This document shows positions 1 to 22,158 of a DNA stretch of 64,000 nt, piece after piece. The DNA is from Gautieria morchelliformis (taxonomy: Eukaryota > Basidiomycota > Agaricomycetes > Gomphales > Gomphaceae). Location: contig WHVA01000573.1 of the NCBI GenBank assembly GCA_015179125.1, forward strand, positions 1-64,000, written 5' to 3'. Position 1 is the first letter of the stretch. Each line of letters starts with the position of its first letter. The notes below the pieces were generated by a model. The model made no database searches. It was not told the DNA's origin and saw only the letters and a list, made by a program, of their open reading frames with translations. Position numbers and translations under genes: made by a program.

Positions 1-1973
1 CTCCTCTTATGCAATCCTCATGTTCCCATATATAGACAAGCGGCTGAGAGGCTCAGAGCTCAGGGACAGAATGGTGAGATCCGGGCTAGGCTCACGTACA
101 GGGAACACAGGGATCCTAGGAGGTATAATATCCCTACTGCGGATGAGATTGCGGTGGTTCTTCCTGGAAGGCACCATCCCTGAACCTAGGGATATTATTG
201 TCCAGCTCAAAGGTGGACTTTAAAGGGTATCCGATATGAATCCAAACTATGCCTCTCTTCACTATGTCTTGCTCTTTCCCAGGGGAGAGTTGGGGTGGCA
301 ACCTGGTATTCGCTATCGCCAATTACCAGACGGGCGTGAGCGAAGTGGGCGTGTCACCCAAATTCAGTTCCATTCCTATCGTCTCTTCCAGAGAACAGAA
401 GAACCTACAACACTCCTGCGGCTGGCAAATTATTCCAGCAGTACATTGTAGACTCTTGGGCCGCTGCAGAGCAAAGCAGGCTGTGGTGGATCAGGACAAA
501 TCAACACACTCTCCGTGCTGAGATGTATAACCAGATGATGGATGCCTTTCATCGCAATGACAATGACAGAGATCCAAACAACTTGGGCGCAAGATCCATT
601 CTGCCTGCCACATTTCAGGGGGGACACGGGACATGCAGAAAACCTGCAGAACTCTCTGGCCATTTCAAGGAAGCATGGTGTGGCGATCTCTTTATTACCA
701 TGACTGCCAATCCCAACTGGCAGGAGGTATTGGATGCATTGTTGCCTGGACAAACTCCTCAGGACAGGCCTGACCTGGTGTCGCGGGTGTTCCAGCTCAA
801 AAAGAAATACCTCATTGACTTGATCGTCAAGGAAAAGATTTTTGGGGAAACCGTCGCTCGCGTCCACACCATTGAATTCCAGAAAAGGGGACTCCCACAC
901 ATGCATATCTTATCTGGTTTGAAGAGATTCCAAGATCAGACATCCACATGAGGTGGATTCAATGATTTCGGCAGAGTTCCCTGATCCAGAGACTCAATCC
1001 TGTCCTCTACCGGTTGGTCTGTGAGCTGATGACACATGGTCCCTGTGGACAAATGAAACCAAACGCACCCTGCATGGAAAATGGCAAGTGCAAGAAAAAC
1101 TTCCCAAAGCCATTCTGTGAGGAGACCATTGTGAATGTAGATGGATATCCAAAATATCGTCGTCGCAATGATGGAAGGCTTCACAATGTCAGAGGTGACA
1201 TGCTGGACAACAGATGGGTTGTGCCATACTCTCCTCTGCTCTTGCTCAAACTTCGGTGTCACATCAACCTTGAATTCACCTTCAGTGTGAGGTGTGTCAA
1301 GTATATCCACAAGTATCTCTACAAGGGGCATGATCGGACCACGATGGAGTTTGGTGTCAACCATGATGAGATAAAGAAGTACCTGGACGCTCGCTATGTC
1401 AGTGCTCATGAGGCCTGTTGGAGGTTGCTGGAGCGGGAAATCCACACCCAGGTGCCTGCAGTCATGGCACTGCCAGTCCATGAAAAAGCCCAGCAATCAG
1501 TCGTTTTCAATCCTGATGCTGATCCGCTCACCATCATGAACAGGGTTGAGGGGTCAAAGACAGCGCTCATGGCTTACTTTGAGGCCAATGCTGCCTACCC
1601 TCATGCACGCAATGTGCTCTATGTGGATTTTCCTGAGCATTTTACCTGGAAAAAAGAGGAAAGGGTATGGACACCACGTCAAAGGGGATATAGCATTGGA
1701 CGCCTTCACTTTGCAAGCCCAAAATCAGGAGAGAGATTTTATTTGCGCACTCTCCTCACGGTGGTCAAGGGGGCCAGATCCTTTGAGGAGCTTAGGATGG
1801 TGGATGGCATACAATGTGCTACTTACAAGGAGGCCTGTCTTGCCAGGGGACTTCTGGAGGATGATCAGGAGTGGAGGTTGTGTCTCCAGGAAGCCAGTGG
1901 CATAAAAGCAGGCGCTCAGCTCAGACATCTCCTTTGCCACCATCCTTGGTCATTGCATTCCCTCACAACCTGA
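1..1973 (+). pseudogene. Helitron-1 Rep (HUH) region, frame-broken
   Basis: Encodes the replication-initiator half of the Helitron RepHel protein, which nicks and joins single strands during rolling-circle transposition. The HUH metal motif is visible as GLPHMHIL near 888-911. The two-tyrosine motif lies in the segment EIKKYLDARYVSAHEACW near 1367-1420. The reading frame shifts several times: the first 500 bases fall in different frames, and just after the HUH motif (about 912) one T is missing compared with the second Helitron, so translation leaves the Rep frame and resumes in another frame from about 1014. Between 1735 and 1975 the frame shifts again into the helicase part. Comparison with 17012-19383 supports reading these as decay rather than introns. 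Confidence 0.88.
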
Positions 1974-3649
1974 CAGACTATGGGACGCCTTCAAGGAGCA
2001 CATATGTGATGATCTCAGACATCGGCTCCAAGTCAGACACAATATCCAGGAAGCCATGGGATGATCAGGTCTATGATTTTGGCCTCTTTCTCTTGGATAA
2101 ACTCCTTCAGCGTAATGGAATGTCCTTGAGCAGCTTTAAAGATATGCCTCGGGTGGTAGGTGAGTGGGAGGTCCTGATTGGAAACAGGTTCATAGCTGAG
2201 CAGAGGGATTATGACCCTGTTCAAGAGAGGCAGATGGCTGAGGAGGAGGTTCCCAAGCTGAATGAGGGGCAAAGGTCTGTGCATGATCAGATATTACGGT
2301 CGGCACTGGACATAGATGCTCAGGGGAAACCTAATGGACAAATGTTTTTCGTCACTGGCTCAGGGGGCGCTGGGAAATCATTCACATGGAACACCCTAAT
2401 CCACTCCTGTAGAGTGGAGAGTCTCATTGTGCTTGCTGTAGCCTCATCTGCAATGGCTGCACTTATCCTCACTAATGGGACAACATCTCACAGCATGCTT
2501 GGAATTCCAATTCCTGTCCATGAGGGCTCTCTCTCCTCCATCAAAAAGAACTCTGACCAGGCTGATATGCTGAGACTGGCCAGGCTCATCATTTGGGATG
2601 AGGCTGCAATGCAGCATCGCCATGCCATAGAGGCCATTGACAGGACACTGAGGGATTTCCTTGACCAGCCTGCCAGACCCTTTGGTGGCATCACGGTTGC
2701 CTTTGGAGGTGACTTTCAGCAGACCCTCCCAATTGTCCCCAAAGGCTCCAAGGAGGATATCGTGGGAGCTACCCTTCAGAAGTCATATCTGTGGCCAAAG
2801 ATCAAGGTCCTCCATCTGACAGAGAACATGCGGGTGAGAAATGACCCTGACAGAGCCAGGTTTGCAGAATGGCTGCAGAATGTGGGTGAGGGAAAGGATC
2901 TCCCACTAGATCATACGTTCTCACTCCCTCCTCACATGGTTTGTCGCCCTGGAATTGCAGAGCTGATCCAGGAAATATACCCTGGCATTGGCAATGCAAT
3001 CCCTGCCCAGGACAATTATTTTTTAGAGCGGGCCATCCTCTGTCCCAGACATATTGAGGTCAATGAGATCAATTCCATGGTGTTGAGGCAGTTTCCAGGT
3101 GATGCTCAGGTCTTCCACTGTGCAGATTCTGTCAAGGAAACCGACTTTGCAGAGCAGTATCCTGTGGAGTATCTGAATTCCATAGAGATGGGCAGTCTTC
3201 CTCCTGCTCACTTGGAAGTCAAGCCTGGAGTGCCTCTGATGATGTTGCGCAATTTGGATAAGAAGCAAGAACTATGCAATGGGACAAGGTTGCGGTTGGT
3301 GAGGATGAGGAATAGAGTGTTGGAGGTCAGGATCATCTCAGGTCCACGTGCAGGAAATACTGCTTTCATCCCCAGGATCACCATTTCACCATCAGAGGGG
3401 GAATTACCATTTGTGCTGCAGAGGAGACAGTTTCCAGTGCATGTGGCATTTGCAATGACCATCAACAAGTCTCAGGGACAGTCTTTGGGTACGGTTGGGC
3501 TGGACCTGAGATATCCAGTGTTTGGACATGGTCAGTTGTATGTTGGTGTTTCAAGGGGAACAAGCTGGAACAAAGTGAAGGTCTTGCTTGAGGAGGGTTT
3601 GAACACAACCAACATTGTATATAAAGATGTATTACTTAGAGCTCCTTGA
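1871..3649 (+). CDS. Helitron-1 Pif1-like helicase part
   Basis: A 592-residue open frame. The first 130 residues are linker and not a natural start, because in a whole Helitron this part is continuous with Rep; the frame is open only because the break lies upstream. Superfamily 1B helicase motifs are in order: Walker A GSGGAGKS (about 2360-2383), Walker B IIWDEAAM (about 2587-2610), GGDFQQTLPI (about 2707-2736), AMTINKSQGQS (about 3454-3486) and YVGVSRG (about 3539-3559). In Helitrons this 5'-3' helicase unwinds the donor strand for Rep. The stop at 3647-3649 is about 160 bases from the element's 3' end, as usual. Function is inferred from family; the gene as a whole is broken upstream. Confidence 0.85.
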   Translation: MEVVSPGSQWHKSRRSAQTSPLPPSLVIAFPHNLTDYGTPSRSTYVMISDIGSKSDTISRKPWDDQVYDFGLFLLDKLLQRNGMSLSSFKDMPRVVGEWEVLIGNRFIAEQRDYDPVQERQMAEEEVPKLNEGQRSVHDQILRSALDIDAQGKPNGQMFFVTGSGGAGKSFTWNTLIHSCRVESLIVLAVASSAMAALILTNGTTSHSMLGIPIPVHEGSLSSIKKNSDQADMLRLARLIIWDEAAMQHRHAIEAIDRTLRDFLDQPARPFGGITVAFGGDFQQTLPIVPKGSKEDIVGATLQKSYLWPKIKVLHLTENMRVRNDPDRARFAEWLQNVGEGKDLPLDHTFSLPPHMVCRPGIAELIQEIYPGIGNAIPAQDNYFLERAILCPRHIEVNEINSMVLRQFPGDAQVFHCADSVKETDFAEQYPVEYLNSIEMGSLPPAHLEVKPGVPLMMLRNLDKKQELCNGTRLRLVRMRNRVLEVRIISGPRAGNTAFIPRITISPSEGELPFVLQRRQFPVHVAFAMTINKSQGQSLGTVGLDLRYPVFGHGQLYVGVSRGTSWNKVKVLLEEGLNTTNIVYKDVLLRAP

Positions 3650-3783
3650 TTTCTGATATCTACTTGATGCAAATTGATTACTTTGATTTTCCCCAATGCA
3701 CTTGACCTTACTGATATGTTAGACTTACCGATGCATTAGACTTACTGATGTGTTTGACCTTACTGACGCGTTTGACTTGCACC

Positions 3784-3811
3784 CCCGCGCAAAGCGCGGG
3801 TATCCACCTAG
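3784..3811 (+). other. Helitron-1 3' terminus (hairpin plus CTAG)
   Basis: CCCGCGC (3784-3790), loop AAA, GCGCGGG (3794-3800), then TATCCAC and CTAG at 3808-3811, followed by T. This is the canonical Helitron termination structure: a short GC hairpin about 7-12 bases before CTRR, with insertion between A and T. The related element at 22158 ends in almost the same sequence. Confidence 0.92.
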
Positions 3812-4735
3812 TTCCTATAGGTGAAAGCAGCACGGTGGGAGGTTGTGGGCGCGCTGACAAATGCTGACCAATGCTTGGTCATTAGTTTGTCAGCGGAGCG
3901 CGCGAGCCCCACCAGCGGTTTGTGCCACTCTTCCGGCTCCAGCGCTGCGCAGCGTTCTGGAGCGTGCGAGCGGCGCAGCCGCGAGCGGTTTAGGCCGGTC
4001 TGCCGGCTCAGGCGCTCAAAGCAGCGCTGCGCTGGCAGATCGCTGCGCAGCCAGCCGCTTTGCGCACTCCACCACCACCCTCCTCTCCTCTCCTCTCTGC
4101 CCACTACTAGATAGAATAAAAATTGCGTGAGAGTGAATTAATAGATAGCCTATATAGTGTAGTACACAAAAGATCTCTTCCCAGGGAGATCTCTGCAGTG
4201 AACTATTGGGGTTGACCTCTTCAGTGGGGCAGCTTTTTCTCTGCTAAGGAGCCAGGTAGTCATCCCAGGCTGCCTTAGAGGGAGCCACAATTGCATTGCA
4301 GTTCTTTCAGTGTTGACTTGCACTACTGGTGGCTGAAGAAGACATCTCCCCAGGACCAGGACCAGGACCAGGACCTTTTACTGGAATTATTCCAGTTGGA
4401 TAGCCGAAGAAGACTTGGATATTTTCATCAAAAAAATTTCCCATCCCTTCCTTGGTACATATATTTCTCTGTGGTCTGGTGTGAGCCATCTGACATTTTT
4501 TTATTTTATTTTTTTAAATAGAAATTAATAAATTCCCTGACTTTGCCTAACAAACAGACTCCCTGTCCCTTCCTTGGTATGTATGTATTTCTCTGTGGTC
4601 TGGTGTGAGCTGTCTGACATTGATTTAATTAGAAATTAATAAATTCCCCTGACTTTGCCCAAGAAAAATTAACAACAGCAGCATCTGCTTGCAAATGTAA
4701 GTTGAAGTGGGTAGCTTGATTGTTCCTCTACGCTT
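3812..4735. other. Spacer and probable Helitron 5' subterminal region
   Basis: No gene was found. 3880-4060 is GC-rich with short degenerate internal repeats (GCGAGCGGTTT-like). A run of four GGACCA-like units lies at about 4351-4376. A segment of about 110 bases is tandemly duplicated (about 4437-4545 and 4560-4660), both copies containing TTCCTTGGTA and GTCTGGTGTGAGC. The stretch from about 4096 probably belongs to the Helitron whose N-terminal gene starts at 4736, but no certain 5' TC terminus could be fixed. Confidence 0.5.
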
Positions 4736-5417
4736 ATGCCTGCATTTCTCAGGGATCCTTCTACTCCAGAGAGAAATCGTCAGCAGGAGCGTGAAAGGGC
4801 GAGGGAGGAGCAGGAGGGTCGTATGACGTCGCCTACTGATCGGAGAGCGCGCGCCCTTGCTGTGGCAGCTGCCAGAGCTCGGAACCAGCCACCCCCTCCA
4901 CCACCTCCTTTTGCCATCCCTCACCCTCCTCCTAGAAGCAATGTGGCTGATCCTTTTCAACAACCTGCTGCAGAGCCATTACGTCCTCCTGATCCCAGTC
5001 CTGGACAGCAGGTGGCAGCCCTTCGTGCTCAGTTAGCAGCCATCCCAGCAGCACAGCCCTTGAGAAGATACAGGCAGGAGCCGATACAGCCACCTCCTAA
5101 TCTTCCTGTGGTTGGTTCTGCAGGAATTGCACAGTTGCGTGCTCAGGCTGCTGAGCCAGCACAGCCCTTGAGAAGATACAGGCAGGAGCCAATACAGCCA
5201 CCTCCCAATCTTCCTGTGGTTGGTTCTGCAGGAATTGCACAGTTGCGTGCTCAGGCTGCTGAGCAGTCTGCTATATTGCAGCAATTGGGAAGGGGTAGAC
5301 AGGCAGCTAATCCTCCTGTAGTAGGTTCTGCAGGAGTGGCAGCATTGCGTGCTCAGGCCAATGCAATAAGACCAATGCCGCCGCTACTCCCTGCGCTTTT
5401 GCGGCCTCTTCAGCGAC
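4096..5417 (+). mobile_element. Helitron-3, 5' fragment
   Basis: From 4984 the DNA is homologous to 16519 onward in Helitron-2 (shared CCTCCTGATC-CAGTCC, then GGTTCTGCAGGA and repeated QLRAQA-coding units). The homology stops near 5417, where an inverted F-box fragment begins; no Rep or helicase follows. The left boundary is a guess, set at a TC upstream of ACTACTAGATAG in the AT-rich stretch after 4095. A 3' terminus downstream of 6060 was looked for and no convincing hairpin-CTRRT was found. Confidence 0.6.
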
Positions 5418-5623
5418 TCCACACTGCGAGGGTCTCACTTTCGGCGCTCAGGACTACGAGGTCCCTGTGCAGGGTCCATCGCGAAATCCCGTATGGTTAC
5501 CCCATATTCACATGTTCCCAGGTGTGCACAGGAGATCCATGTGCCGCCGAGGGCAGCCGCATGAACGCCAGTCCACGCGTCTTCATCGATGTTTCAATGC
5601 CGCGAGCCAGGACACCACCATGA
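4736..5623 (+). CDS. Chimeric frame: Helitron proline-rich N-terminus plus antisense F-box
   Basis: A 295-residue open frame starting MPAFLRDPSTPERNRQQERE. Residues 1-50 are charged (Arg/Glu-rich). Residues 50-90 are proline-rich with a run of seven prolines. Residues 105-225 contain repeats of a 36-residue unit (PLRRYRQEP...VVGSAGIAQLRAQA). This is the low-complexity leader that precedes Rep in this Helitron family. From about residue 228 (5418) the frame runs antisense through an inverted F-box gene fragment, so the last 67 residues are an accidental tail ending at 5623. It may be transcribed but is unlikely to have a conserved role as a whole. Confidence 0.5.
   Translation: MPAFLRDPSTPERNRQQERERAREEQEGRMTSPTDRRARALAVAAARARNQPPPPPPPFAIPHPPPRSNVADPFQQPAAEPLRPPDPSPGQQVAALRAQLAAIPAAQPLRRYRQEPIQPPPNLPVVGSAGIAQLRAQAAEPAQPLRRYRQEPIQPPPNLPVVGSAGIAQLRAQAAEQSAILQQLGRGRQAANPPVVGSAGVAALRAQANAIRPMPPLLPALLRPLQRLHTARVSLSALRTTRSLCRVHREIPYGYPIFTCSQVCTGDPCAAEGSRMNASPRVFIDVSMPRARTPP
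5053..5268 (+). repeat. 108-bp tandem repeat, two units
   Basis: ACAGCCCTTGAGAAG begins at 5053 and again at 5161. The two 108-bp units differ at only a few bases and encode the 36-residue proline-rich repeat. A diverged partial third unit follows (5312-5360). The length is a multiple of three, so the frame is kept. Confidence 0.85.
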
Positions 5624-6060
5624 AGCTCCCATAGGTGACCCTGAGGACAGTGGAGGAGGTGTTTCTGGCGGAAGTGAAGCTTGAAGGTCGGCCCAGCCTT
5701 GTTTGATAGTTTTGAGTTGAGCAAGTCGTTCAGGGATTGAACGCCGAGAATCCGTGTGTGCATCTTCAACACACCTGCAACAGCAAGCTCCATGCGATAC
5801 TGCAAGATCAACGCATCTCGGATCGTTTCATGAGAAACGCGACAAGTCTGCAAAATGTCAAGTACTTATAAGAAAGCTCCAGGTAGCTTGGACGTAGGAC
5901 AGTCATTACTCGCAAGCAATGTCATATGTCATATGTCCAGCTCATTGAAATGTGTATAAGAATTTCGTTGGGAAGAGCCCGCCGAACTACGTGACGCGCG
6001 GGCCTCAGATTTAGGGGATGACACTGGTAGAACGATGGGTAGTTTCTCCAGGGTTGATCT
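5418..6060 (-). pseudogene. F-box protein gene fragment, inverted copy
   Basis: Reading leftward from 6060, the segment matches 43925-44557 along its whole length with mostly single-base differences. It encodes the F-box motif LPNEILIHI (near 5961-5987) and, after an intron ending in TTTTGCAG, residues typical of basidiomycete F-box proteins (CRVSHETIRDALILQY, then MELAVAGVLKMHTRIL, and later HTWEHVNMG). From 5853 down to 5500 this copy reads through without the indels seen in the copy at 44 kb, so it is the less decayed of the two here. F-box proteins bind Skp1 and recruit targets to SCF ubiquitin ligases. The fragment stops abruptly at both ends: Helitron sequence on one side, unrelated DNA on the other. 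Confidence 0.82.
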
Positions 6061-7592
6061 ATGTGGCATACCATATACAGATATTCAATGATTGGTATCG
6101 CTATGGAGCATTGTATCTGGTTGGGTCATGAGTTCGTTGTCGTTGCATGGTCACGTCTGAGAGTTGGAGTGAATGTGGCTGGTATCGGACTAGCCGAACC
6201 CTTGTTTTTGTTACGGCATGTTCGGCAACCTTCTGCTTTGAACAGCGGAAAAAGGCACCGGCTACCATATAGGGAATCCAATTGGTGGCCTGTGCGCACG
6301 CCCCTTGGCGCCTAATGGTAGTATATAGGGCCCTCAACCCCGTTCAACTTTTCCTTACCACTCTGGCCTTTTGGTGAGTACCCGTAACAAGTTAAGCGAA
6401 GAAGTAAGAGCTAACCGTCGTACAGGCTTAGATCAAGTGTAGTATCTGTTCTTTTTAGTTTAACCACTAAAATGACCGCACCGCGGTCATCATTGGTTAG
6501 CCAATTTTTGCCGCCCTCGTCTCTCGACCTCTGCTTGCACGTGGGGGGACATGATGACCTTGCTATTGCAGTACCGGCTTGTGTCGTCAGGGGATTCTTA
6601 TTCACTTTTCTTTTTTACTGCTTTCGCCTCAACCATTCTTTCAATGGTCTGTTGCGGCTCAGTAAAATCGAAAGTGTTAACCATCTTTCATCGCTGTTTT
6701 TCTTCGGATTCGTCCCACTCTCGGCTGCGCGAGTATTGTGCTTAGAAAATATAAATCCATTAGAAACCAAACAGAAGCTGACATTGTTGTGTGCGCTGCG
6801 TGAGACAGTCTTTTAAAGACTCCGGGAGATCTGTGACGGAACAAGCGCTAGCTCCATGGACGGCTTGTCATCCGGATTGTGCAGACACTGACCTAGAATG
6901 GACAATGGACACCTTGTTCAGGGTCTATGACAACAAGTCACGTGGGTCCTAGCTCGCTCATCACCTGGGACAGGTAAATGATGTTATATTATGGATGGGA
7001 ATGCAGAGGCCCATCTATGGTGTCCAGGAAGGACAAGGTCTGTTTTCATTTTACGAAATGCAAATTTCAAATCGCTAATCGCAAATCAAAAATGACACTT
7101 AGCATTATGTAAAATCAACTAGTTTTGCAAAGCACTGGCCAACTCATGGGCATTGGACTGTTGAAGAACCTATGTGACAGGATCTCAGCCTCAGAATCAG
7201 CACCCTTTTAGCATATCTTTTTTCTGAATAACCTCATGCAGTGATATGGTGATACTATGATGAGTGTTCCAACCGGTCATGCGTCTTTTTCGTTCTCAGC
7301 AGCGCAACTGTTTCATTTGTCAGGATTGATAGCTGGGCTTGAGTCTCAGTTGTGAACGATACTTGGCTCTAAAGCCCAGGTGCCTCGCGCCTTGCACTTT
7401 GCCTGCTGCAGCTTATTTGGGGTGGACTAGGACTGACATTGCCATAGTATTTGGAATGCAGCCTGAAATGGTAAGCAGCGCCTGGGGATAACGCATCAGG
7501 CCCATGCATGGTTGCTCTCCCGATCTGAAAAGTATATTTTCATGTAAGTTTTCATTTATAGTGATTTCACATTCTGCTCACTGACGTTCACT
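6061..7592. other. Intergenic; promoter-like block and possible untranslated exon
   Basis: About 6310-6440 looks like a gene start on the plus strand: a TATATA box (6312-6317), a pyrimidine-rich stretch, and a well-formed intron from GTGAGT at 6373 to ACAG at 6424 with a CTAAC branch site. The following 114-residue frame (6472-6816, MTAPRSSLVSQFLPP) resembles no family I know, has an unremarkable hydrophobic middle and lacks an obvious continuation, so I do not call it a gene. 6820-7592 is ordinary AT-rich sequence before the kinase start codon. Confidence 0.35.
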
Positions 7593-10500
7593 ATGAAGTG
7601 CAACACATGTGGATCTGTCTTCCAGCTTTGTGAAGACATTCAAGGTGCCATGTGTTGTAGATGTACCAAGGTTAACGCCGCAACCCTTCCAGCTGAAAAG
7701 AAAAAAATATGGGTGCAGAGTATAGCTTGCGTGAAATTTATTTGGCTAGTCTGACTCAATACCTGCTTAGGAGATGCCACAGTGCGAGGGCTGTGGTGTT
7801 GTATATGCCCTTTTGCAGGGACTGCTCTGTGGCTTGTGCAAGTTGATTACATGTAAGATGCTTTCTTTTGCTGTCTTGATTCTCTTTACTAAGTTATCAA
7901 ACATCTCCTCAATTAGGTACAGAGCCAAAGGATAATTTGGTGACAGAGTCCAGTGTCACTAGCATGATGGACAGCATGCGTACTCACCAAACACAGGCAT
8001 CTCAGCACCACATAAATCATCCAAGCAAACAACCGCCTAATAAAGGCCTTCAAAATGCCACAGAAGCTGCTAGGTGTAATCAAGCCCAAAAAGTGTTGAG
8101 TCGTCTCAATACCATTTCACTACTTGGAAATCTGTGGGTCTATCCTGCCAATGGTGGTACAGCCAAAGTCGTGAGTTTGATATTTTACATCCTTTGTACT
8201 TTAACCTAAGACACATTCAGATTCAGCATCCAATGTCGAAGTATACAGGCATATCTAGCATTGCAGCTTCAGAAGCGCTCAATGCATTTACGCTGGAGTT
8301 ACTCTCTGCGTACAATGGCTTACAAGGGAATGAAATGCCAGGACATGGTAACCTCTCAGCCTTTATTACCTGGTATGTTAAACAGTTACTATCCTTGCTG
8401 AAGTCACCTGATTAAGTATGTTATATTGTAGTGAAAAACTCTGCTTTTCAGTTCAGAAAGATGCTAGCACTTTAAGTCCACTCAAACCAACCGGTAGCTT
8501 AGCAGATATGCATAGCCAATTGAGTCGGGACAATGAGTTGTCAACTAAGGATGTGAAATCAAATTCTATTACACTGCAAGCATATGTATGGCAGCCCAAG
8601 TCAAGGAAGCAAGGGAGAGAAGGTGTTGTGCATGTAGATCTCTCTGCCTTATTGTATTACTATTCTGATAGGGGCTTTCCGGGATATAGAGTGATGATGG
8701 CACTGACACAGATGATAACAATACCAAGGGAAAGATATTGGAGTACCAACATCAAAACGTCATATTATTGAACGTACTCATGAATCTCATGCGAGTGTGT
8801 CTTCTGTACAGCAAGTAGCTACAGTGTGAAGTAGTAGGATCACTCCCCGCAGTGTTAGCAGCCTGTCCGAATCCTCCCTCGGCTCAGTTCATTCAAACAA
8901 ATCTTTGAATATGGCACCAGCTGCATATGTCAGTGCATATCAACCAGCACTGGCAGGTCCTTCGTTGATACAACCTATGTCAACTCTTCGGTTTGATGCC
9001 TATCCTTTCCGACGCTCTACATGCACTACATGCGAGGACGGCGTTGTAGAATTCAACCACCACTCAGGCATAGAAATTATTTTAGTTGCCAAATGACTGG
9101 CCATGGCACAAGTACCAGGAGAGCCGCCAAGGTGGATATCTAGGTAAGGGACTAGAAAAATATGCATTCCAACTAAGTAATATGCTATAATCCACGATCC
9201 ATGAACTGATATATATTTACTATAGGGTAGAGATAAGGACACTGATGTTGCATTATTCCAAATGAACCCTGGATGGTCTAAGTGGCCCGTATCAGAAGAG
9301 GACAATGAACAGCTTCTTCTTCAAGGGCTAATTGCGTTGACAACTGCAGATTATTTTATGCAGAGCTTTCATTGCCATGCAATCCATTACAGCGTGTACT
9401 TGCCAAGTATGCTAATGCATGTCTCTGTTTGTTTTAAGAATACTAAGTACTAGGGTTCCAGGTTTGCAGTTTAATTCCAAGGGGGCATTCCTCGGTGTAG
9501 TTGAGACAGGAAAGATATCTCCACACCCGGAGGTCGGACCTGATCATCGTACCTTATCAAATTATACTTTCCTTGCCACACCTCTGCTTCCAGGCGACCA
9601 TAGAGACTTACACAAATATTCCGGCTCACTTGTAGTTGGACATAATGGTAACACTGGGATTGATGCTGCAATAGATGCTTTTGCACACCATGTCGTTGTT
9701 GATAGTAGCAGATCGGTGCTAGTCTGCAATCTTCAAGGTATATTGACAATATAACAGAGTATATTAGTTTGTAGTATATATTATGTACAATAATATGAGA
9801 TTATCGTACAATAATATTGCTGCCCAGGGAAATAATCTTTCCCACAGTTATTAGATGCACGTGACTGCCGCGTGTTTAGGACCATATATTCCGAACACGC
9901 TGCTCCATCCTCGCTGCTCTCCTTATGCGTTCTGTCAACTTCCACCAGTGAAAGACCCTTCTTGCCACTGTTGTGCCCCTCATCCTCCTGCAACAACGTA
10001 CTCCTGGCTCTGGAATTCACCCCTCTGGCACCACAACCGCTGAACAGACCGATGACCTGACCCCTGACGACACACTCTCCATCTCAGTCGTCTGCAGTTC
10101 TTTGCCCAAAGTGGTCCCACACCCTGAACAGGGGGGCGAGCGGATAACGCTGGAGTACCTCCGGCAGATGAGTGAGGCCGAGTGCATCTGGAGGTTCAGG
10201 TGAGTATACACTACATGTGAACGCTTGAACAAACTCACAAAAACCACATTAGGTTTACAGTAGGGGTACTTCAGCTCCTTGCAGATCTTTTGCAGCTCCC
10301 GACACCTCTCATCACAGCCGCCGGGAGCCGCACAAGTGCCCTTGAGGCGATCTCACTTCTTTGTGCACGCCTGCGGAGCCCAGAGGACCAGTGGTCCTTA
10401 TCCACAAAGTACCACCGTCCTCAGTCCACTATCTCCCAAATCACCAACGAGGCGGCCTCTTTCATCGATGCCCGGTGAGGATTTCTCCTTGACTGGGACC

Positions 10501-12966
10501 GGCATGGCCTTTTGTCCCCAGAGAAGCTGGGCGAGTACGCCGATGCCCTTTACGATTTCGGAGCACCCTGTCGCAGTGTCTTCGGCTTCATCGATTGCAT
10601 GATCTGGCAGACGTGCCGGCCAGGGATATATCAGGAGCTTGCCTACACCGGTTACAAGAAATGTCATGGCATGAAGTTTCAGGGGGTTGTCGTCCCCAAC
10701 GGGTTGATTGCCCATCTAGCTGGCCCATACAGGGCCCCACAGAACGATGCTGGAGTCCTGAAGGAAAGCTCACTGCTCCAGCATCTCGAGCGGTATGCGA
10801 TTCAGCCTGGGTCACGGGAAGGGGATGCACCCAGGGATTGTTATTTCCAGGTGTACAGTGATTCAGCTTATGGGGTGAGCCCCTTTATCGTGAGTCCCTA
10901 TTCCACCGTGAATGCGCTTACCCCAGAACAATGCGCATGGAACACGGCAATGGGTGGGGTACGGATATCCGTGGAGCACAGCTTCGGCCTCATTTTCAAG
11001 ATTGTCCGTTCCTCCATGCCTTTTGGAAGCACAAGGTATGGGGGAATGCATGTGGCAGCATGTACCACGTTGGTGTTCTCCTCACAAACGCGCATTCGTG
11101 CTTGGAGCCGAATCAGACTTCTCTTCGTTATTCATGTCCTCCCCCTTTCCTCCACAATACTTCCATGAATAGTCATGTTCTCTAGCAGTTTATGCATGTA
11201 TGCCACCCCTGTCCCTGTTTGTAGAGCCAACAAACAATTTTTAGGTCTTTTTTTTTTTTTTTTTAAGAAAACCTTTTTTTTGTCAAGAAAAAATTATTTT
11301 GTCAAATTTGTCAAGAAAACAAATTTTTGGGCCAAGAAAACAATACTTTGCAAGTGAGACATCTCAAACTAATTAAGGAGCCCCTGCCACAAGATATCCA
11401 GGAGCGCTGTGCTTGTCCTCTCCTGCTGGTCATTCGCACGACGTATCTCCTCAAGGAGAGCCTGGCGTGCCTTCCTCTCCTCCTCAAGTTGCGCCTCACG
11501 CATCTTGCGTGCCTCTGCACGTGCTTCCTCCAGGAGCTCGACCAGTTGTGTAGTTTCAGTCCTCCGCCTCCCTCCCACACAGGAACGTTTCCGTCCGAAG
11601 CTCTCACGCGTATCTGTCCCAGATATGCTCGCCAATTGACTCCCATCATTCTCCTTCTCAGAAATCCCAACCGATGGAGATGGGGAGCATCCTCGCTTCT
11701 GCCTATGTCGCTGGCATCTCACCATGGCGTCTCGCATAGTCTCTCCCACATCCTTCACCGTGTTCTGAGCCTATTGATTAGATAGTAGTAGCCAATAAAT
11801 ATCATGAACAAAGCCCTTCACTCACCTGTTTTTCGCGCTCCTTCTCCTCCTCCCTGGTCCCTTTCGCCTCCAACTTGAGATGCTGCACGGCATCCAGCTT
11901 CCCTGAGAGCTAGGCGAACAGGGCTGGATCGCACTCCCACTCTTTACCAAGAGCAGACCAGGGAGTCTTCTTTTTTCCCCCCTACTCTCTTCTAGTCAGC
12001 GCGCAAACATAAAATAATTACGCTAGGACGCACCTCCACCCAAGCGAGCAGGGATGCCACCTTGTTCTTGAGTGTGTCTGGCTCACGGTTCAGGCAAGAC
12101 CCACTCTCTTGCACGCGCCTGGCCACTTCTTTCCAATGTTCACCCAGCTTTGCCCGTGGTGCCATGTACGGGTTGACCTCGATCACAGCATGGAGGAGTT
12201 GGTCGAGGTCACGCAAAGAAAAGGCTTCACACGCATTGCATGAAGATATGGGTTGTGACCCTAGCACACCTGATGCATCCAACCTGGTGTTCGATGACTC
12301 GTCAGGTGTGCGAGGGGGTGCAGTGACCGAGGTAACCAGGGAGAGGGCAACAGCCGGTGGATGGGGCGCATTAGTAGAGTTAGAGAAAAGGGCGGGACTG
12401 AGCCTTTCCTCAATCCCACCTGCTTGTGATGCAATCGGAGTGCTAGGGGTGTTATAAAAGACAGCGGGCGGGATTGGCTGCATACTCACATGCGATGCAG
12501 TGGTGGGCTGGAATGGACTGACGCGTGGGTGTGGGCTGGAGTGGATGCGACATTGCTAATATTTTCTCACGCACCTGTAGGATAGGATTAGCAATTCGGC
12601 GTACTCCGCAACTAATGTATATTACAAACTAATATTGTCTAACATACCACACATATATTTACTAATTTCTCTTGCAGGGTTTCTCATAAAAGAGGACTTT
12701 CTATTATTTGATCCTCAAGTGTGGAGGTGCGTAATCTGCCTGGTTAAGAATCTAACATATTAATAAGCTCTGAGAGGATTAGTACTGCAGATGGTGTGGA
12801 GACTACAGCCGTCTCTTTGAGTGCTACCGATGCAATCGAGCAGTTTATTTCCGAGCATGTCTGCAATCCCATTTGTTTGGCATTGCAACTGGGTCCGGCT
12901 TCCAGCTTATCTACTACGGCATTAGCACCCACCAAACGAACAGGCCCCCTGCAACATGGCTTCTGA
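7593..12966 (+). CDS. Alpha-type protein kinase with N-terminal zinc ribbons (multi-exon)
   Basis: Atypical MHCK/EF2-kinase-family Ser/Thr kinase of a type common in Agaricomycetes. Exons by eye: 7593-7712, 7771-7852, 7917-8170, 8221-8372, 8432 to about 8770, an uncertain part 8770-9260, about 9261-9406, 9462-9737, 12678-12726, 12768-12966; phases agree at every junction I could check. The N-terminus has two CxxC-type zinc ribbons (MKCNTCGSVF...CCRC and CEGCGVVYALLQGLLCGLC). The middle is Ser-rich linker. The C-terminal kinase half shows YTFLATPLLP, DAFAHHVVVD and LVCNLQG, then after a 2.94-kb intron FLLFDPQVW, and finally EHVCNPICLALQL, the zinc-binding C-terminal signature. An in-frame TGA near 8827 and the unresolved 8770-9260 region mean it may be a recent pseudogene or have a missed intron. 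The glycine-rich loop was not identified. Confidence 0.72.
9973..11185 (+). pseudogene. DDE (DDE_Tnp_4) transposase, PIF/Harbinger-like
   Basis: Exon 1 ends at 10199 (LTLEYLRQMSEAECIWRFR), the intron is 10200-10252, and exon 2 continues FTVGVLQLLADLLQLP in phase. The catalytic core is recognisable: first Asp in VFGFIDCMIW, second in APQNDAGVLKES, Glu in VRISVEHSFG, with SDSAYG replacing the usual GDPAYG. It has at least two lesions. A TGA at 10476-10478 stands where the family usually has Trp (AR-W-FLLDWD). A frameshift near 11005 moves the C-terminus (HKVWGNACGSMYHVGVLL) to another frame, which ends at 11185. Reading the TGA region as an intron puts the rest out of frame. The start is uncertain; 9973 is the earliest codon in frame without a stop. 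Confidence 0.82.
11369..12489 (-). pseudogene. Myb/SANT-like DNA-binding protein of the transposon
   Basis: Accessory gene convergent with the transposase. Three exons: 12489 to about 12030 (FSLRDLDQLLHAVIEVNPYM, then HWKEVARRV and LKNKVASLLAWVE), about 11970-11828 (TPWSALGKEWECDPALFA, LSGKLDAVQHL) and about 11772-11369, ending in a coiled coil (ELLEEARAEARKMREAQLEE). The first part resembles the trihelix/SANT fold used by Harbinger partner proteins to bind terminal repeats and carry the transposase to the nucleus. A TAG (plus strand 11910-11912) interrupts the second exon between Ala and Leu, so the gene looks disabled, matching the damaged transposase. Exon borders are by eye. Confidence 0.65.
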
Positions 12967-14193
12967 CTAGTACACATATTGTAGTATTCTGGAGTCTCCA
13001 TTACTTGTATTTTCCTTTTAATGAGTGGTGATCATAGGCAGCAAACCGAAATAAATATATATATATAGATATATATGTGTAATGCCGGCATGATACCAAA
13101 TTTTATACCATATCAAGCTGGATACAAGAGTATTAACATTTCTTGAAATACTAACCAAGCGTTGTCCATGGTCAGTATCGTATTCAGAGAGAGAAATACT
13201 ATGTTTGCCCAAGCCACATACTTCACATCTACAAAACAAATGAGATCCTCACCACCGAGCTCCTGCTTTAGCTTTCTCACCAGTCCAACATCAACACTTT
13301 GAAGGCAATTCATACCACCACAAGGCAGTAGAACTCGACCAATCTATGGTGATTCTAATATGATGTAGTGATTGTTATATTATGGAGGGGAAATGTCAAG
13401 CTCCATCCTAGTGCATTCCACTCATACTTGCGCATAGGCAAGTTACCCACCCGAGATCTATTACATGCGCATGCGTTATCACATGCACGCGCATCTAGCT
13501 GGCCCCTTTAACCCTGAGCTTGGTTCCAGGGCTGCTCAAGGCACAGATCCGAGATGGAGCACGGGAGGCGCTCCATCGTTCCTGAAAATATGTAGTTGCT
13601 CTACAATAGTATAGAAAGCTCCACAGTTTAAGGCACTCATGCCTGATGGACAGATAGCTACATACTCCAGCACCGGTGCATATATCATGCACCTGCGGCA
13701 TCTGTTCGCTCCACAAGCGTCTTTCATACCTACCCTAGTATAGCTTTGTTCCAAAGTACTTAAGTAGCTAGGAAACATGTATAGAATCTCAGGCAGTAAG
13801 AAACTCCAAATGTGCTGTTGTAGCTGGCTGTTTTGAAGCCACAGTTCTTATCATTTTGGCCCCAGACTCGCTTCAGCCCTTAACTGGTGCTTGAAGTTAT
13901 TTCTCCGTAGTTCCCTTTACCCCCCATCGTATACGTATGCAGCAGATCCCACACCATGGTTTACAACGGTGATGATTTACAAGTAAGGTTAAGCTGGGGA
14001 ATCCCAGAGGGTTCCCACACAAGAACTATACAGTGGGTCTGTGAGGACCCACTGGCACTATCTAAGCAACCGAGTATTATCTATTCCCTGGCAGCAATAC
14101 AGGTGAATATGCATATTTACACTGAAGGATGAAGGATCCTCAATAGCATGCTCAACACCAAGCATGCCAACACATGGAACCTGGCACTGCAGG
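12967..14193. other. Intergenic, no gene recognised
   Basis: Ordinary sequence with a TA-rich microsatellite around 13050-13080. A 66-residue minus-strand frame at 13113-13313 (LVRKLKQELGGEDLICFVDV) is mildly protein-like but lacks homology I can name or a convincing continuation. Confidence 0.4.
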
Positions 14194-15012: not shown

Positions 15013-15557
15013 AGCACTGGGGCTGGTGGCCCACCACCACCTCCCAGCCAGTGCTGGGCCTCATAGCCCAGATGGCCAGCCCACCCAGCCCATCGTTCAT
15101 GAGCCCAAGTGAGCCACTGGCATTGATTGATGATGTGCCTGATGGCTTTTACTCAGATGACTCAGATCTGAGAAACTACAATACAGGTCACACCCAGCAC
15201 ATCTCCAAGAAAAGACATGCCCGTGGTCATGATGTGCTCATGACTTAAGACCCCATCAGTGACATATGCAAACACGTCACCAGCAAGTACATTGCCAGGC
15301 ACCAAGCCATATGGTTGACAACCCAGCATTGGCACAGGCACTTGACACCGTCCAGGCAGAATACATTGCAGACGAGCAGGAGAGGCAGGATGAATGATCC
15401 TTCCACCAGCACCATCAATGTCCTTGCCCCCGTTGGCAATGACAGTTCCCAACCCTCTCACAGGGGAAGGGGAGCTTAGCCCTCTCTGGGACCTGCTGTT
15501 CTCTGTGATGGGCCACCTGCCACATCCCATGGGCAAAAGAACCCAGGAATGCACTGA
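15013..15557 (+). other. Probable continuation of the dispersed repeat; no intact gene
   Basis: GC-rich DNA with short open frames only (e.g. 15051-15248, SPPSPSFMSPSEPLALIDDV). Proline/serine-rich and acidic composition in the frame that continues from the repeat suggests remnants of an element protein, but there are many stops and no recognisable domain. Confidence 0.35.
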
Positions 15558-16488
15558 GTCGTTCGACATCTGAGCCAGGCCGCCATTCAAGCCACTTGAA
15601 AAGAACGAGCCATACCCAGACAATACATGCTAAACGCTCTACACAGACAGATACAGGGAGTCGTAGAGCAACAAACAGGAGCCGAAATACTTCTGAGATG
15701 GGTGCCAGGGCATGAAGGGGTGGAAGGGAGCGAGAGAGCCGACGAGGAGGCGAAAAGAGCAGCAGAAGGACAAAATAGCGGCGTGCGGTACATACCAATC
15801 GAGTATCGGGGGAAACTACCAGAGGTCCAAAGGCACAATGCGAAGCTAAAGTGGGAAGCGAGGGAAAAATTTGCTAAGTCCCCCAGAGCAGTTTATGCGC
15901 ACGAGATTGACCCCACGATGCCGTCGGCAGCATTCTCAAAGATCACAGGAAATATGCCGCGCAAACAAGCGAGCCTGCTGGTACAACTGAGAACAGGGCA
16001 TATCGCGCTGAACAAACACTTGCACAAGATAGGGAAGGCAGCATGGCCCCTATGCTCAGTGTGCAAGAGCGCTCCAGAGACGGTACACCACTTCTTGTTC
16101 CGCTGCCCAGCCTACAAAGAGCAGAGAGGGAGGCTGGAGAGAAAACTAAAGAGAGGAGCCAAGTCGGTCAAGACATTATTGGGAGGACACAAGGTGATGG
16201 AACATTTATTCAGGTACATACACGATACCAAGCGATTCGAAGGGCAATACGGAGACATCTCGACACAGCCAGGGAAAGCGAGAACAGGCGAAAGACAGGA
16301 AAACAGAGACACTAGGCACGAGACGCAAACCATACACCCCACCCACATAGGCACGGACACACTTGGGGCTACACCCAAAGAGTTCAAGCAGAGAAAGAGG
16401 TCGAAAGGAGGGAAGGAACGGTCACAAGAAGGAACTTGTATATTTCGTCTTACATAGGGTACGGCCCCAAAAGATGTTAAATTGGATG

Positions 16489-16518
<30 letters not shown>
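15558..16518 (+). mobile_element. 5'-truncated LINE (Tad-like) with poly-A tail
   Basis: Non-LTR retrotransposon 3' end. From about 15570 it encodes the C-terminal RNase H domain (SQAAIQA; LRWVPGHEGVEGSERADEEA) and then the terminal zinc knuckle CSVCKSAPETVHHFLFRC (C-x2-C-x8-H-x4-C) usual in fungal Tad-clade ORF2. The main open part is 15627-16457; an in-frame TGA lies upstream at about 15600. Endonuclease and reverse transcriptase are absent, as expected for 5' truncation during target-primed reverse transcription. The tail is about 28 A (16491-16518). Immediately after the poly-A the sequence becomes Helitron leader homologous to 4984. Confidence 0.87.
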
Positions 16519-16521
<3 letters not shown>

Positions 16522-16540
16522 TCCTGATCTCAGTCCCAGA

Positions 16541-19383
16541 GTGCAGGTGGCAGCCCTCCTTGCTCAGAGAGCAGCTCTCCCTCGGTTACAGCCTGTGAGA
16601 AGAAATCAGCCAGACCCTGTACAGCTAGCACCTGTAGTAGGTTCTGCATTTATTGCAGACTTGCATGCTCAGGCGGATCAGCAGGCTGCTATATTGCAGC
16701 AATTGGATAGACGTAGACGGGGGGCTAATCCTCCTGTTGTGGGTTCTGCAGGAGTGGCAGCATTGCAGGCCCAGGCTAATGCAATCAGGCAAGAGGAAGA
16801 TGCAATCCTCAGACCTCCATTGGTACCACCTCCCAATCATCAGCCACTCCCTGCACCTCCTCGGCCACTCCCTGCACCTCCTCAGCCACTCCCTGCACCT
16901 CAGCTGCCTCCTCCACTCCCCATACCTCGGCAGCGTCCTCAGCAACCTCAGCACGGTGCTCAGTGACCTCCTCCTATTCCACTAGGTCGCTCTCAAATAA
17001 TTGAGGCAGATGTGCAGCCTCATGATCTGGGTCCCATGGAAGTGGCCTGTCCTAAATGTAGAGCATTGCACTGGTTTGCAGAGCGTCTGCAAAGCTCTAC
17101 AAATGCGGAGGACCGTTTTGGTGATTGCTGTATAAAAGGAAAGGTGCAGCTTCCAAAGCTGCCAGTGCCCCCTCAGCCTTTGAGATGGCTCTTAGAAGGC
17201 CAAGACCCTGAGGCAAAAGAGTTTCGCCAGAATATCAGGCAGTATAATGCTGCGTTTGCATTCACTTCCTTGGGGGCCAACTTTGATAAAGATTTGCTTC
17301 GGGCAGGTCATGGTCCATATGTCCTCAAGCTACAGGGTGAACTGTATCATCTTCATGGCTCTCTCCTCCCAGATCATGAACCGGATACAACATATGCCCA
17401 GCTTTACATATATGATCCAGCATTGGCTTTGGCAAAGAGGAAGATGTGTAACCCAGGTCTGTCTCCAACTGTCATGGGAGACTTGCAGGAAATGCACCTG
17501 GTCTGCAATCCTCATGTCGCCATATATAAACAAGCAGCTGAGAGGCTCAGAGATCAGGGACAGAATGGTGAGATCCAGGCGAGGCTCACATACAGGGAAC
17601 ACAGGGATCCTAGGAGGTATAATATCCCTACTGCAGATGAGATTGCAGTAGTTCTTCCTGGAGATGGCATTGACCCTGAACCTAGGGATATTATTGTCCA
17701 GCTCAAAGGTGGACCTTTCGAAAGGGTATCTGATATGAATCCAAACTATGCCTCTCTTCACTATGTCTTGCTCTTTCCCAGAGCAGAGTTGGGATGGAAA
17801 CCAAGTATTCCTTATCATGACCCAGAGGGTGCTTGGGAGGCCAACCCAAACAGACGGGGCAGGTCACCCAAATTCAGTACCATTCATTTTGTCTCTTCCA
17901 GAGGAGAGATGAACCTACAACACTCCTGCGTGCTGGCAAGTTATTGCAGCAGTATTTAGACTGTTGGGCCACTGCAGAGCAAAGCAGGCTGAGGTGGATC
18001 AGGACAAATAAACACACTCTGCGTGCTGAGGTGTATAACCAGATGGTGGATGCGTTTAATCGCAATGACAATGACAGAGATGCAAACAGCTTGGGCACAA
18101 AATCCATTCTGCCTGCCACATTTCAAGGAGGGACACGGGACATGCAGCAAAACCTGCAGAACTCTCTGGCCATTTCAAGGAAGTTTGGTGTAGCCAATCT
18201 CTTTATTACAATGACTGCCAATCCCAACTGGCAGGAGATATTGGATGCATTGTTACCTGGACAATCACCTCAGGACAGACCTGACTTGGTGTCACGGGTG
18301 TTCCATCTCAAAAAGAAATACCTCATTGACTTGATCATCAAGGAAAAGATTTTTGGGGAAACTGTCGCTCGCGTCCACACCATTGAATTCCAGAAAAGGG
18401 GACTCCCACACATGCATATTCTTATCTGGTTTGCAAGAGATTCCAAGATCAGGCATCCACATGAGGTGGATTCTATGATTTCAGCAGAGTTCCCTGATCA
18501 AGAGACACATCCCATCCTCTACCGCTTGGTCTGTGACCTGATGACACATGGTCCCTGTGGAGAAATGAATCGAGACGCACCCTGCATGGCAAATGGCAAG
18601 TGCAACAAAAACTTCCCAAAGCCCTTCTGTGAGGAAACCAGTCTGAATGAGGATGGATATCCAAAATATTGTCATCGCAATGATGGAAGGCAGCACAATG
18701 TCAGGGGCAACACGCTGGACAACAGATGGGTTGTTCCATACTCTGCTCTGCTCTTGCTCAAACTCCTGTGTCACATCAACGCTGAACTCACCATCAATGT
18801 GAGGTGTACCAAGTATATCCACAAGTATCTCTACAAGGGCCATGATCGGACCATGATGGAGTTGGGTCTCAGCAAGGATGAAATTAAGCAGTACCTGGAT
18901 GCTCGCTATGTCAGTGCTCATGAGGCCTGTTGGAGGTTGCTGGAGCGGGAAATCCACACCCAGGTGCCTGCAGTCATGGCACTGCAAGTACATGAAAAGG
19001 ACCACCACACAATCATCTTTGATCCCAATGAGCCTGTGGGCAACATCCTCATTAGGGCTGAGGCGAAAAAGACACCACTCATGGCTTACTTTGAGGCCAA
19101 TGATATGTACCCTGAAGCACGTGATCTGCTCTATGTGGATTTTCCTGAGCATTGTACCTGGCACTCACAGGAAAAGGTATGGACACCACGCCAAGGAGGT
19201 TATAGCAACGGTCGCCTTCACTTTGCAAGCCCTAAATCAGGAGAGAGATTTTTTGTGCACACTCTCCTCACAGTGGTCAAGGGGGATCCTTTGAGGAGCT
19301 TAGGTCAGTGGATGGCATACAATATGCTACTTACAAGGAGGTCTGTCATGCAAGGGGACTTCTGGATGATGATCAGGAGCTGA
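16541..19383 (+). pseudogene. Helitron-2 leader, N-terminal domain and Rep, frame-broken
   Basis: Three overlapping frames together cover the Rep half. 16541-16966 is the proline-rich leader (VVGSAGVAALQAQANAIRQ). 17012-17959 has a cysteine pair (VACPKCRALHWFAERLQ) and the N-terminal region. 17833-19383 (516 residues) is the Rep domain: HUH motif GLPHMHILIWF (about 18400-18432), CNKNFPKPFCEET, and the two-tyrosine motif EIKQYLDARYVSAHEACW (about 18879-18932). The Rep stretch is less damaged than in Helitron-1. A stop at 16964 separates leader and N-terminal domain, a shift near 17850-17900 precedes Rep, and Rep ends with a shift after 19290. Confidence 0.87.
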
Positions 19384-19439
19384 GGTTGTGTCTCCAGGAA
19401 GCCAGTGCCATGAAAACAGGTGCTCAGCTCAGACATCTC

Positions 19440-21994
19440 TTTGCCACCATCCTTGGCCATTGCAATCCATCCTAGCCTGGCAGACTATGGGATGGCTTCA
19501 AGGAGCACATATGTGATGATCTCAGACATCAGCTCCAAATCAGACACCATATGCGGGATCCACAGGATTATCAGGTTTATGATTTCAGCCTCTTTCTCTT
19601 GGATAAAATCCTCCAGTAGGGTGGAATGTCCTTGAGCTTTGATGATATGCCTCGGGTGGCAGGCGAGTGGGAGGCCCTCATTGGAAACAGGTTCATAGCT
19701 GAGCAGAGGGACTATGACCCTGTTGAAGAGAGGGAAAAGGCTGATGAGGAGGTTCCCAAGCTGAATGTGGGGCAAAGGTCTGCACATAATCAGATATTAC
19801 GGTCGGCACTGACCAAAGATGCTCGGGGCAAACCTGACGGACAAATGTTTTTTGTCACTGGCTCAGGTGGTGCAGGGAAATCGTTCATGTGGAACACTCT
19901 GATCCACTCCTGTAGAGTGGAGAGCCTCATTGTGATTGCAGTAGCCTCATCTGCAATGGCTGCACTTATCCTCACTAAGGGTACAACCTCTCATAAGATA
20001 GTGGCAGTATAAACTGCGCACCCTCTAAGCGCCCATTAGTCATCTTAGGGTTAGGGTTTAGGCGGCGAAAATAACCCGGGGAGAATTTTCAAATTTCGGT
20101 AGGACATCCTGGTAGCTATATATTACTTTGGGGCCTAATCTAAGTCCATTATTGACTTTGGTAGTACTCTATACCCATGAAACTTTACTTTCCTGTAATG
20201 TCTGTTGGCTACAAGGGGTTATAAGTATTATCTAGATTGATGTTAGTGTGGCAGGTTTGATTATTGAGGTATGTAGATTTTTGTTTCAACCAACAGACTT
20301 TGTGTAAATAGTTCATTGCCTATATTTTTCTGTTTTCTTTCTGTAACTTGCTGTTGCAGTTTTAATTTTTGGTATATAAAATTCACAACACAAGTATACT
20401 ATTTTGGATGCACAAACGAGGCTTTAGTGTGCCAATCAGGACCTCCCTTGCTACGCTCGGATCCACCAATTTAATTTTGGTATTTTTCTTATTACTCATG
20501 TATACAAAAGCTTGAGCCGCATCGGAGTCTGAAGCGTCGGAGTGGGGATATATCCTTGTCACTGTGTCCCACGAAAAAAGCATTCAAGCTCCGCTGTTTG
20601 CTTATGTAATGCGGCGAAAATCGCCGGGACAGAAAATCGAACTTGGGTTTCCTGGACAGGGAATCATGTTTTATGAATTTTGAAATGAAAAAGTGAAAAA
20701 ACATGCAATAGAAATTTTTATAAGCTTGATTTCAACAAAATAGCACCATAGAGTTGTTGAATAGTGTCTTATGAACAAACGTATGGTCTTACTTTTTTGA
20801 TATTTTGAGTGTCTACAATAGGGAAAATGTTCTGGTGAGATGGCTTAGATGGGCGCTAAGGGTGCACAGTCTATACTGCCGCTATCTTAGCATGCTTGGA
20901 ATTCCCATTCCTGTCCATGAGCGCTCTCTCTCCTCCATCAGAAAGAACTCTGACAAGGCTGACATGCTGAGAAAGGCCGGTCTCCTCATCTGGGATGAGG
21001 CTGCAATGCAGCATCGCCATGCCATAGAGGCCATTGACAGGACACTGAGAGATTTCCTTGACCAGCCTGACCGACCCTTTGGTGGCATCACAGTTGCATT
21101 TGGAGGTGACTTTCAGCAGACTCTCCCAATTGTCCCTAAAGGCTCCAAGGAGGATATCGTGGGAGCTACCCTTCAGAAGTCATATCTGTGGCCAAAGATC
21201 AAGGTCGTCCATCTGACAGAGAACATGCGGGTGAGAAATGACCCTGACAGAGCCAGATTTGCAGAATGGCTGCAGAATGTGGGCCAGGGAAAGGATCTCC
21301 CACTGGATCATATCCTCTCACTCCCTCAACACATGGTTTGCGGCCCTGGAATTGAAGATCTGATCCAGGAAATATACCCTGGCATTGGCAATCCAGTCCC
21401 TGCCCGGGATGATTACTTTTTGGAGCGGGCCATCCTCTGTGCCAGAAACATTGAGGTCAATGAGATCAACTCCATGGTGTTTAGGGAGTTTCCAGGTGAT
21501 GCTCAGGTCTTGCACTGTGCAAATTCCATAGAGATGGACAGTCTTCCTCCTGCTCGCTTGGAAGTCAAGCCTGGAGTGCCTCTGATGCTGTTGCACAATT
21601 TGGATCAGAGGCAAGGACTATGCAATGGACAAGGCTGCGGTTGGTGAGGATGAACATTAGAGTGTTGGAGGTCAGGATCATCTCTGGTCCATGTGCAGGA
21701 AATATTGCTTTCATCCCCAGGATCATCATTAAGCCATCAGAGGGAGAATTGCCATTTGTGCTGCAAAGGAGGCAGTTTCCAGTGCGTTTGGCATTTGCAA
21801 TGACTATCAACAAGTCCCAGGGACAGTCTTTGGGTACGGTTGGGCTGGACCTGAGATATCCAGTGTTTGGACATGGTCAATTGTATGTTGGTGTATCAAG
21901 GGGGACCAACTGGAACAGGGTTAAGGTCTTGCTTGAGGAGGGTGTGCAAACCAAAAATATTGTATATGAAGATGTATTACTTAGAGCTCCTTGA
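19440..21994 (+). pseudogene. Helitron-2 Pif1-like helicase, split by a MITE
   Basis: The first piece (19626-19995) reaches Walker A GSGGAGKS and the stretch ending ILTKGTTSH. A 892-bp MITE then interrupts. The second piece (20888-21994) resumes at MLGIPIPVHERSLSSI and shows LLIWDEAAM, GGDFQQTLPI, AMTINKSQGQS and YVGVSRG. A small deletion near 21625 (one base missing against Helitron-1 in GGACAAGG) shifts the last third to another frame, and the segment matching about 3130-3165 of Helitron-1 (VKETDFAEQYPVEY) is missing. Compared with Helitron-1 the protein is otherwise closely similar. Confidence 0.88.
19996..20887. mobile_element. Tc1/mariner-type MITE, 892 bp, TA duplication
   Basis: The left end AGATAGTGGCAGTATAAACT and the reverse complement of the right end AGATAGCGGCAGTATAGACT continue as imperfect inverted repeats for about 40 bases (CTG-GCACCC...GCGCCCAT). 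TA is duplicated on each side (19994-19995 and 20888-20889); removing the insert restores the helicase sequence seen in Helitron-1 (CTCA-AGCATGC). No transposase is encoded. It contains TTAGGGTTAGGGTTTAGG at about 20045-20062, resembling fungal telomere repeats. Confidence 0.9.
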
Positions 21995-22129
21995 ACTGTA
22001 ACATTCACTTCCCTGATACAATTTACTTAGTATTTACTTAGTATACTTTTTCTTGATGCAAGTTTTTATTGTCTCAATGCCTGTGAATTTACTGATGTGT
22101 TTGACCTTACCAATGCATTTGACCTAAAC

Positions 22130-22158
22130 CCCAGTGCTTTGCGCGGGTACCCACCTAG
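22130..22158 (+). other. Helitron-2 3' terminus (degenerate hairpin plus CTAG)
   Basis: CCCAGTGC...GCGCGGG pairs imperfectly, followed by TACCCAC and CTAG (22155-22158), then T. Helitron-1 has the perfect version. Confidence 0.85.

Follow-up and report, generated by a model that had tools for sequence, protein, structure and literature searches.

Passages describing the Pangu group of DNA transposons (PMC4482050) give it 3-bp target duplications of the form ANT, terminal inverted repeats of 11-40 bp that start with AG or GG, two open frames and a mean length of about 3.5 kb, with members known from three basidiomycetes. On the second frame, the same source reports no known motif in one passage and lists Pangu with Myb/SANT in another; it gives TWA as the canonical PIF/Harbinger target. 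The group corresponds to Harbinger2 in Repbase, according to a passage of a further source (PMC12730594). As for the decay of basidiomycete transposons, the relevant passages of Amselem et al. 2015 (PMC4352252) tie C-to-T change at CpG to methylation and deamination, and a TpCpG preference is quoted there for Microbotryum.

The stretch analysed here (the window) comprises 64,000 nucleotides of the Gautieria morchelliformis contig WHVA01000573.1 (positions 1 to 64,000, forward strand). A full-length Pangu-like, PIF/Harbinger-related DNA transposon of 2,885 bp occupies 9756..12640 on the plus strand, with edges common to other copies in the genome, and lies in an intron of an alpha-kinase copy. 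The family resembles the described Pangu elements in its ANT duplications, AG-start repeats, two frames, DDE transposase and length of 2.9 kb. The window copy departs from them in having AAC on both sides instead of ANT, and the second gene here gives a weak Myb/SANT signal. With canonical PIF/Harbinger elements the family has in common DDE_Tnp_4, a Myb/SANT-like second gene and a 3-bp duplication, but not the TWA target: none of the 24 other left flanks is TWA, and that of the window is AAC. Judged from the ANT duplications, the 28-nt repeats starting with AG, the second open frame and the DDE transposase of PHIS type, the element fits the Pangu group of the PIF/Harbinger-related PHIS superfamily.

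Edges, genes and family of the element

The left terminal inverted repeat (9756..9783, plus strand) starts with AGAG, spans 28 nt and is 86% complementary to the right one (12613..12640), which starts with AGAC on the minus strand and was placed by the end alignment of the copies. A perfect AAC duplication flanks the element, at 9753..9755 on the left and 12641..12643 on the right. The right AAC is also present in C371, a second contig carrying the element, and a single AAC stands at the empty sites, which were checked for the window insertion alone. The search for terminal repeats and a 3-bp duplication that the initial annotation had proposed was thus positive. Reading the duplication as TAA/TTA was ruled out, since the edges set by the other copies give ANT. 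The annotation had entered the transposon under 9738-12677, the span of its intron; the transposon does lie inside this interval, but 18 nt at 9738-9755 and 34 nt at 12644-12677 are host intron. The insert is not a chance match, because it has many matches in the genome and its two edges recur as the limits of other copies.

When the whole intron was used as query, the genome gave at least 62 matching stretches, the window included; with 40 of 142 candidates scored, all family counts are lower bounds. We retrieved 38 regions around family matches and lined up their ends to fix the element edges. On the left, 24 of 25 flanks ended in ANT (ATT 11, AAT 9, AGT 3, ACT 1), the window alone having AAC; these flanks are not all independent, as L017, L018 and L026 have one flank in common. 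On the right, ANT stood at the expected place in 24 of 28 flanks, the exceptions being the window and C371 (AAC in both), L017 (altered end) and L040 (alignment one base off). Among the 17 copies with both ends, 15 had identical ANT on the two sides and two had an altered right end (L015 and L017). The AAC of the window is therefore off the ANT rule of all 24 other left flanks, and it is found in the empty kinase copies as well. Since the empty copies have it, AAC was likely there before the insertion; the site is a one-off departure.

The window element differs from 14 of the 16 compared copies by a p-distance of 4.1-5.8%, and from the remaining two by 9.0% and 11.8%. Its distance from the family majority, 3.07%, exceeds that of 12 of 14 other copies; this count covers all rows except L020 and L023, the pair that diverges most.

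The transposase gene that the initial annotation had placed inside the intron gave a firm match to DDE_Tnp_4 (PF13359, E 1.7e-16), a Pfam model not exclusive to Pangu. Its main part spans 10252..11168 on the plus strand, with a putative exon start set from the sequence. The frame is broken by a stop at 10476-10478, absent in all 15 other copies with sequence there (a sixteenth, L022, is gapped), and by a frame-shifting 1-nt deletion near 10996, present in none of the 16 other copies. Of the 16 other copies, 8 have a transposase frame of 317 aa without interruption. In copy L009, the match to PF13359 has E 3.1e-19. The second gene (11369..12555, minus strand) is indeed convergent, but its Myb-like character amounts to a Myb/SANT signal at 11992-12555 (PF13837/PF13873) that is sub-threshold, at 16.5 bits against a cut-off of 27, as it is in all three other copies scanned; a charged, coil-like stretch covers 11369-11770. 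A 4-nt insertion near 12516-12519 shifts the frame of this gene. Neither C371 nor any of the 16 other aligned copies has this insertion (L011 bears a larger deletion here), so it arose after the split from C371. The second frame, on the opposite strand, reaches 211 aa in 7 of the 16 other copies listed, and 208 and 212 aa in two more. Neither transposon gene is intact in the window copy.

Host intron and kinase copy

The donor junction at 9737/9738 reads CAAG/GTATAT and the acceptor junction at 12677/12678 reads TTGCAG/GG. As the initial annotation had stated, the kinase phase is continuous (CAA-G/GG-TTT) across the 2,940-nt intron at 9738-12677, and the alpha-kinase identity of the exons on both sides holds, PF02816 matching the left and the last exon, though weakly. 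The host intron consists of a 5' part of 18 nt (9738..9755, plus strand), whose last three bases are the left AAC and which is identical in the kinase copies C2 and C699, and a 3' part of 34 nt (12644..12677, plus strand) with a TACTAAT motif and the TTGCAG acceptor, identical in C2, C699 and C371. We take TACTAAT to be a branch-point-like motif. According to the two empty copies, C2 and C699, the native intron is 52 nt long, which bears out the proposal that a whole DNA transposon enlarged a short natural intron with splice signals and phase unaltered; the growth to 2,940 nt is about 57-fold. Because its landing place was between the donor and the branch point, the element left signals and phase untouched.

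An alignment of the window with C2 over 2,082 sites has 82 differences, and 34 of 67 CpG positions differ; the 52-nt intron holds no CpG. By arithmetic, a non-CpG rate of about 2.5% should bring about 1.3 changes over 52 nt, with a chance of about 0.28 that none occurs, so the intact splice signals are no sign of use. They need no selection, since chance can preserve them.

The exon left of the intron (9462..9737, plus strand, its putative start set by phase and an AG acceptor) ends in LVCNLQ-G and is about 96-97% identical to C2 and C699; its PF02816 match (E 3.6e-4, 21.1 bits) falls just under the cut-off of 21.3. The next exon (12678..12726, plus strand, putative end by phase) reads G-FLIKEDFLLFDPQVW. 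The last one (12783..12966, plus strand, putative start by phase) contains an HVCNPIC motif and the stop codon, with a weak PF02816 match (E 0.071, 13.6 bits) to C-terminal domain positions 167-185.

Lesions relative to C2 lie upstream, at 8722..9225 (plus strand), where C2 is open for 172 codons (C2 positions 1342-1857). One nucleotide is deleted at 8722/8723 and one is inserted in an A run at 9091-9093, a stop codon stands at 8827-8829, and the donor at 9173 (intron 9173-9225) is lost. The fragment C249 is like C2 at the A-run insertion and the donor; its span excludes the deletion and the stop. At 9728..9730 (plus strand), an Asn codon occupies the Asp position of the DLQG motif, where C2, the distant kinases L053 and L054 and solved alpha-kinases have Asp; this Asn stands in the LVCNLQG that the initial annotation had quoted. 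In alignments with two alpha-kinases of solved structure, 4kuj (E 4e-6) and 3lkm (E 0.011), the C2 Asp falls on the D of DIQG, and it presumably has a catalytic role. The C2 gene model, which is hand-made and runs from within the 172-codon exon to the stop, scores 57.6 bits against PF02816 (cut-off 21.3). The 1-nt indels in the window may be sequencing errors; substitutions account for the premature stop, the altered donor and the Asp-to-Asn exchange. Having neither the open frame nor the DLQG Asp of a functional kinase, the window copy is, as judged by comparison with C2, a pseudogene already upstream of the intron.

C699, which has no insert, is broken too: a stop precedes DLQG, and the last exon has lost 1 nt; thus decay in this gene group is independent of the transposon. 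The initial annotation had suggested that the insertion may lower splicing or create chimeric transcripts. Such an effect is not supported, as the lesions upstream of the intron already make the kinase copy a pseudogene, which probably has no working product whose level could fall. The insertion is probably without effect on a working gene. The family itself is large, with 46 alpha-kinase domain matches in the genome among the matches listed.

Insertion history and alternative explanations

The window flanks were used as genome-search queries to find empty kinase copies. In C2 and C699, the left and right matches were separated by exactly 18 nt of the donor side, and the flanks joined with one AAC aligned to both copies with no gap at the junction and 52 of 52 intron bases identical. 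C371 has the same right junction and holds only the last 728 nt of the element. The flank search of the genome found no upstream kinase exon of C371, and the kinase may have decayed before or after the element came in. An unrooted comparison of the four copies, covering 674-692 aligned nt from the 3' part of the gene, has 12 sites that pair the window and C371 against C2 and C699, versus 2 and 1 for the other pairings; one insertion before the window/C371 split would explain this pattern. In the distant kinase C487 (L054), an intron likewise of 52 nt sits at this position and in this phase without the element, which favours gain over loss and makes the empty state likely ancestral. C781 (L053), also distant, retains the exon end with DLQG and a GTAAGT donor, and no element adjoins it.

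Several features were noted around these copies. C371 (L028 about 4580-4780) has some 200 extra nt in the last exon of this other filled kinase copy. A short high-copy repeat at window 13319-13500 starts within a few bases of where the C2/C699 similarity stops. In genome searches with window 30000-40000, 15500-24500 and 1-7900, made to compare C371 with the window contig (C641) as collinear haplotypes, repeats filled the scored candidates (39 of 5803, 27 of 3194 and 32 of 2102, respectively), so that C2, C699 and C371 may be either paralogs or another haplotype. A long repeat from 1 to about 5420 recurs in at least about 30 other places, mostly at 91-95% identity, and multi-copy repeats at about 16518-19995 and 20882-22160 fall into two identity classes, about 94-96% and 87-91%. 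The roughly 498-bp repeat at about 31060-31557, found in at least 19 other places at 98-99% identity, was probably recently active. An open frame at 15600-16457 contains RWVPGHEGVEGSERADEEAK, which in our judgement resembles a retroelement RNase H.

The account that we favour is, taken as a whole, very probably correct. A two-gene cut-and-paste transposon of the Pangu group would have inserted once at AAC, 18 nt into the 52-nt intron, duplicating AAC; its host would have been one copy of a multi-copy fungal alpha-kinase gene. The segment would later have been duplicated, leaving the element in both the window and C371. The transposon would then have decayed, with many CpG changes that point to cytosine methylation, to the present state of two broken genes. 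With the host copy a pseudogene, the insertion would be a tolerated passenger. The comparison of the four kinase copies, being unrooted, fits one loss as well as one gain, and clean excision is known for PIF/Harbinger elements. The element could thus have stood in the ancestor of all four copies and left C2 and C699 by clean excision, with one target copy remaining. We regard this history as quite unlikely, given that the 52-nt intron of the distant C487 is empty at the same place and that neither C2 nor C699 has a scar. Assembly of transposon reads into a kinase gene is conceivable in a repeat-rich genome, but the target duplication is perfect and C371, a second contig, shares the right junction and carries changes of its own, making an artefact highly improbable.

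Two further readings concern the intron itself. Its donor, acceptor, phase and branch-like motif are all intact and do not differ from those of the empty copies, as they could be if the window kinase works and the 2.9-kb intron is spliced out to yield a functional kinase, perhaps at a lower level. Such signals are expected by chance, however, and the premature stop, the two frameshifts, the lost upstream donor and the Asn in place of the motif Asp make a working kinase very unlikely. It is unlikely, too, that the filled copy is still transcribed and its CpG-decayed intron of 2,940 nt accurately spliced in a gene whose other introns are about 50 nt; if this were true, an old, formerly methylated transposon at an off-rule AAC would provide a natural test of the intron length that the splicing machinery here can tolerate. 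An imperfect repeat, GGTATRTT(A)GACAATAT, seen by eye at the donor and in inverted form close to the right end, could suggest that the transposon made the intron in the manner of an introner, its ends giving the splice sites. The intron is nevertheless present without the element in C2, C699 and C487, and the element, as other copies delimit it, starts 18 nt into the intron and ends 37 nt short of the next exon. The empty sites with their 52-nt intron refute this origin, to which we give practically no credence.

CpG decay and significance

In the window element, C-to-T change affected 39 of 296 CpG positions and 10 of 1,191 elsewhere. The CpG count across the family took 15 of its 17 rows (L009-L027 plus window 9756-12640, leaving out L020 and L023), and CpG-concentrated C-to-T change was found in all 15 copies examined (3.4-18.4% versus 0.2-1.1% elsewhere). 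All four NCG contexts were hit, at 9-15%, the other twelve contexts staying at or below 0.83%; TCG was the lowest of the four (87 of 951). RIP of the TCG type is ruled out, since all four CpG contexts mutate and TCG least. The CpG-confined decay of the family suggests, at the level of sequence, past cytosine methylation followed by deamination. It is like the decay in the passages of Amselem et al. 2015 in that C-to-T change is concentrated at CpG, and differs from the TpCpG preference quoted there for Microbotryum in having no TCG preference (PMC4352252). We also considered whether CpG loss had spread into the kinase copy. Between the window and C2, 21 CpG sites kept in C2 are TpG/CpA in the window and 10 show the reverse, which hints at such a spread; the comparisons of the 3' part with C699 (5 versus 8) and C371 (3 versus 5) do not.

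The insertion is real but of an ordinary, well-documented type, a decayed transposon in the intron of a decayed kinase copy, with the AAC target as its one oddity. In the literature on transposons in fungal introns, surveyed by titles and the starts of abstracts, no title among the papers listed covered this exact case, which is no proof of absence. No large question depends on the insertion. It offers a clean example of a tiny fungal intron enlarged some 57-fold by a transposon, with filled and empty copies in one genome, and it illustrates that intact splice signals can mislead, the surrounding gene being dead. The off-rule AAC target is a small usable fact on Pangu site choice, and the CpG-confined decay is another on how this fungus may silence Pangu elements.
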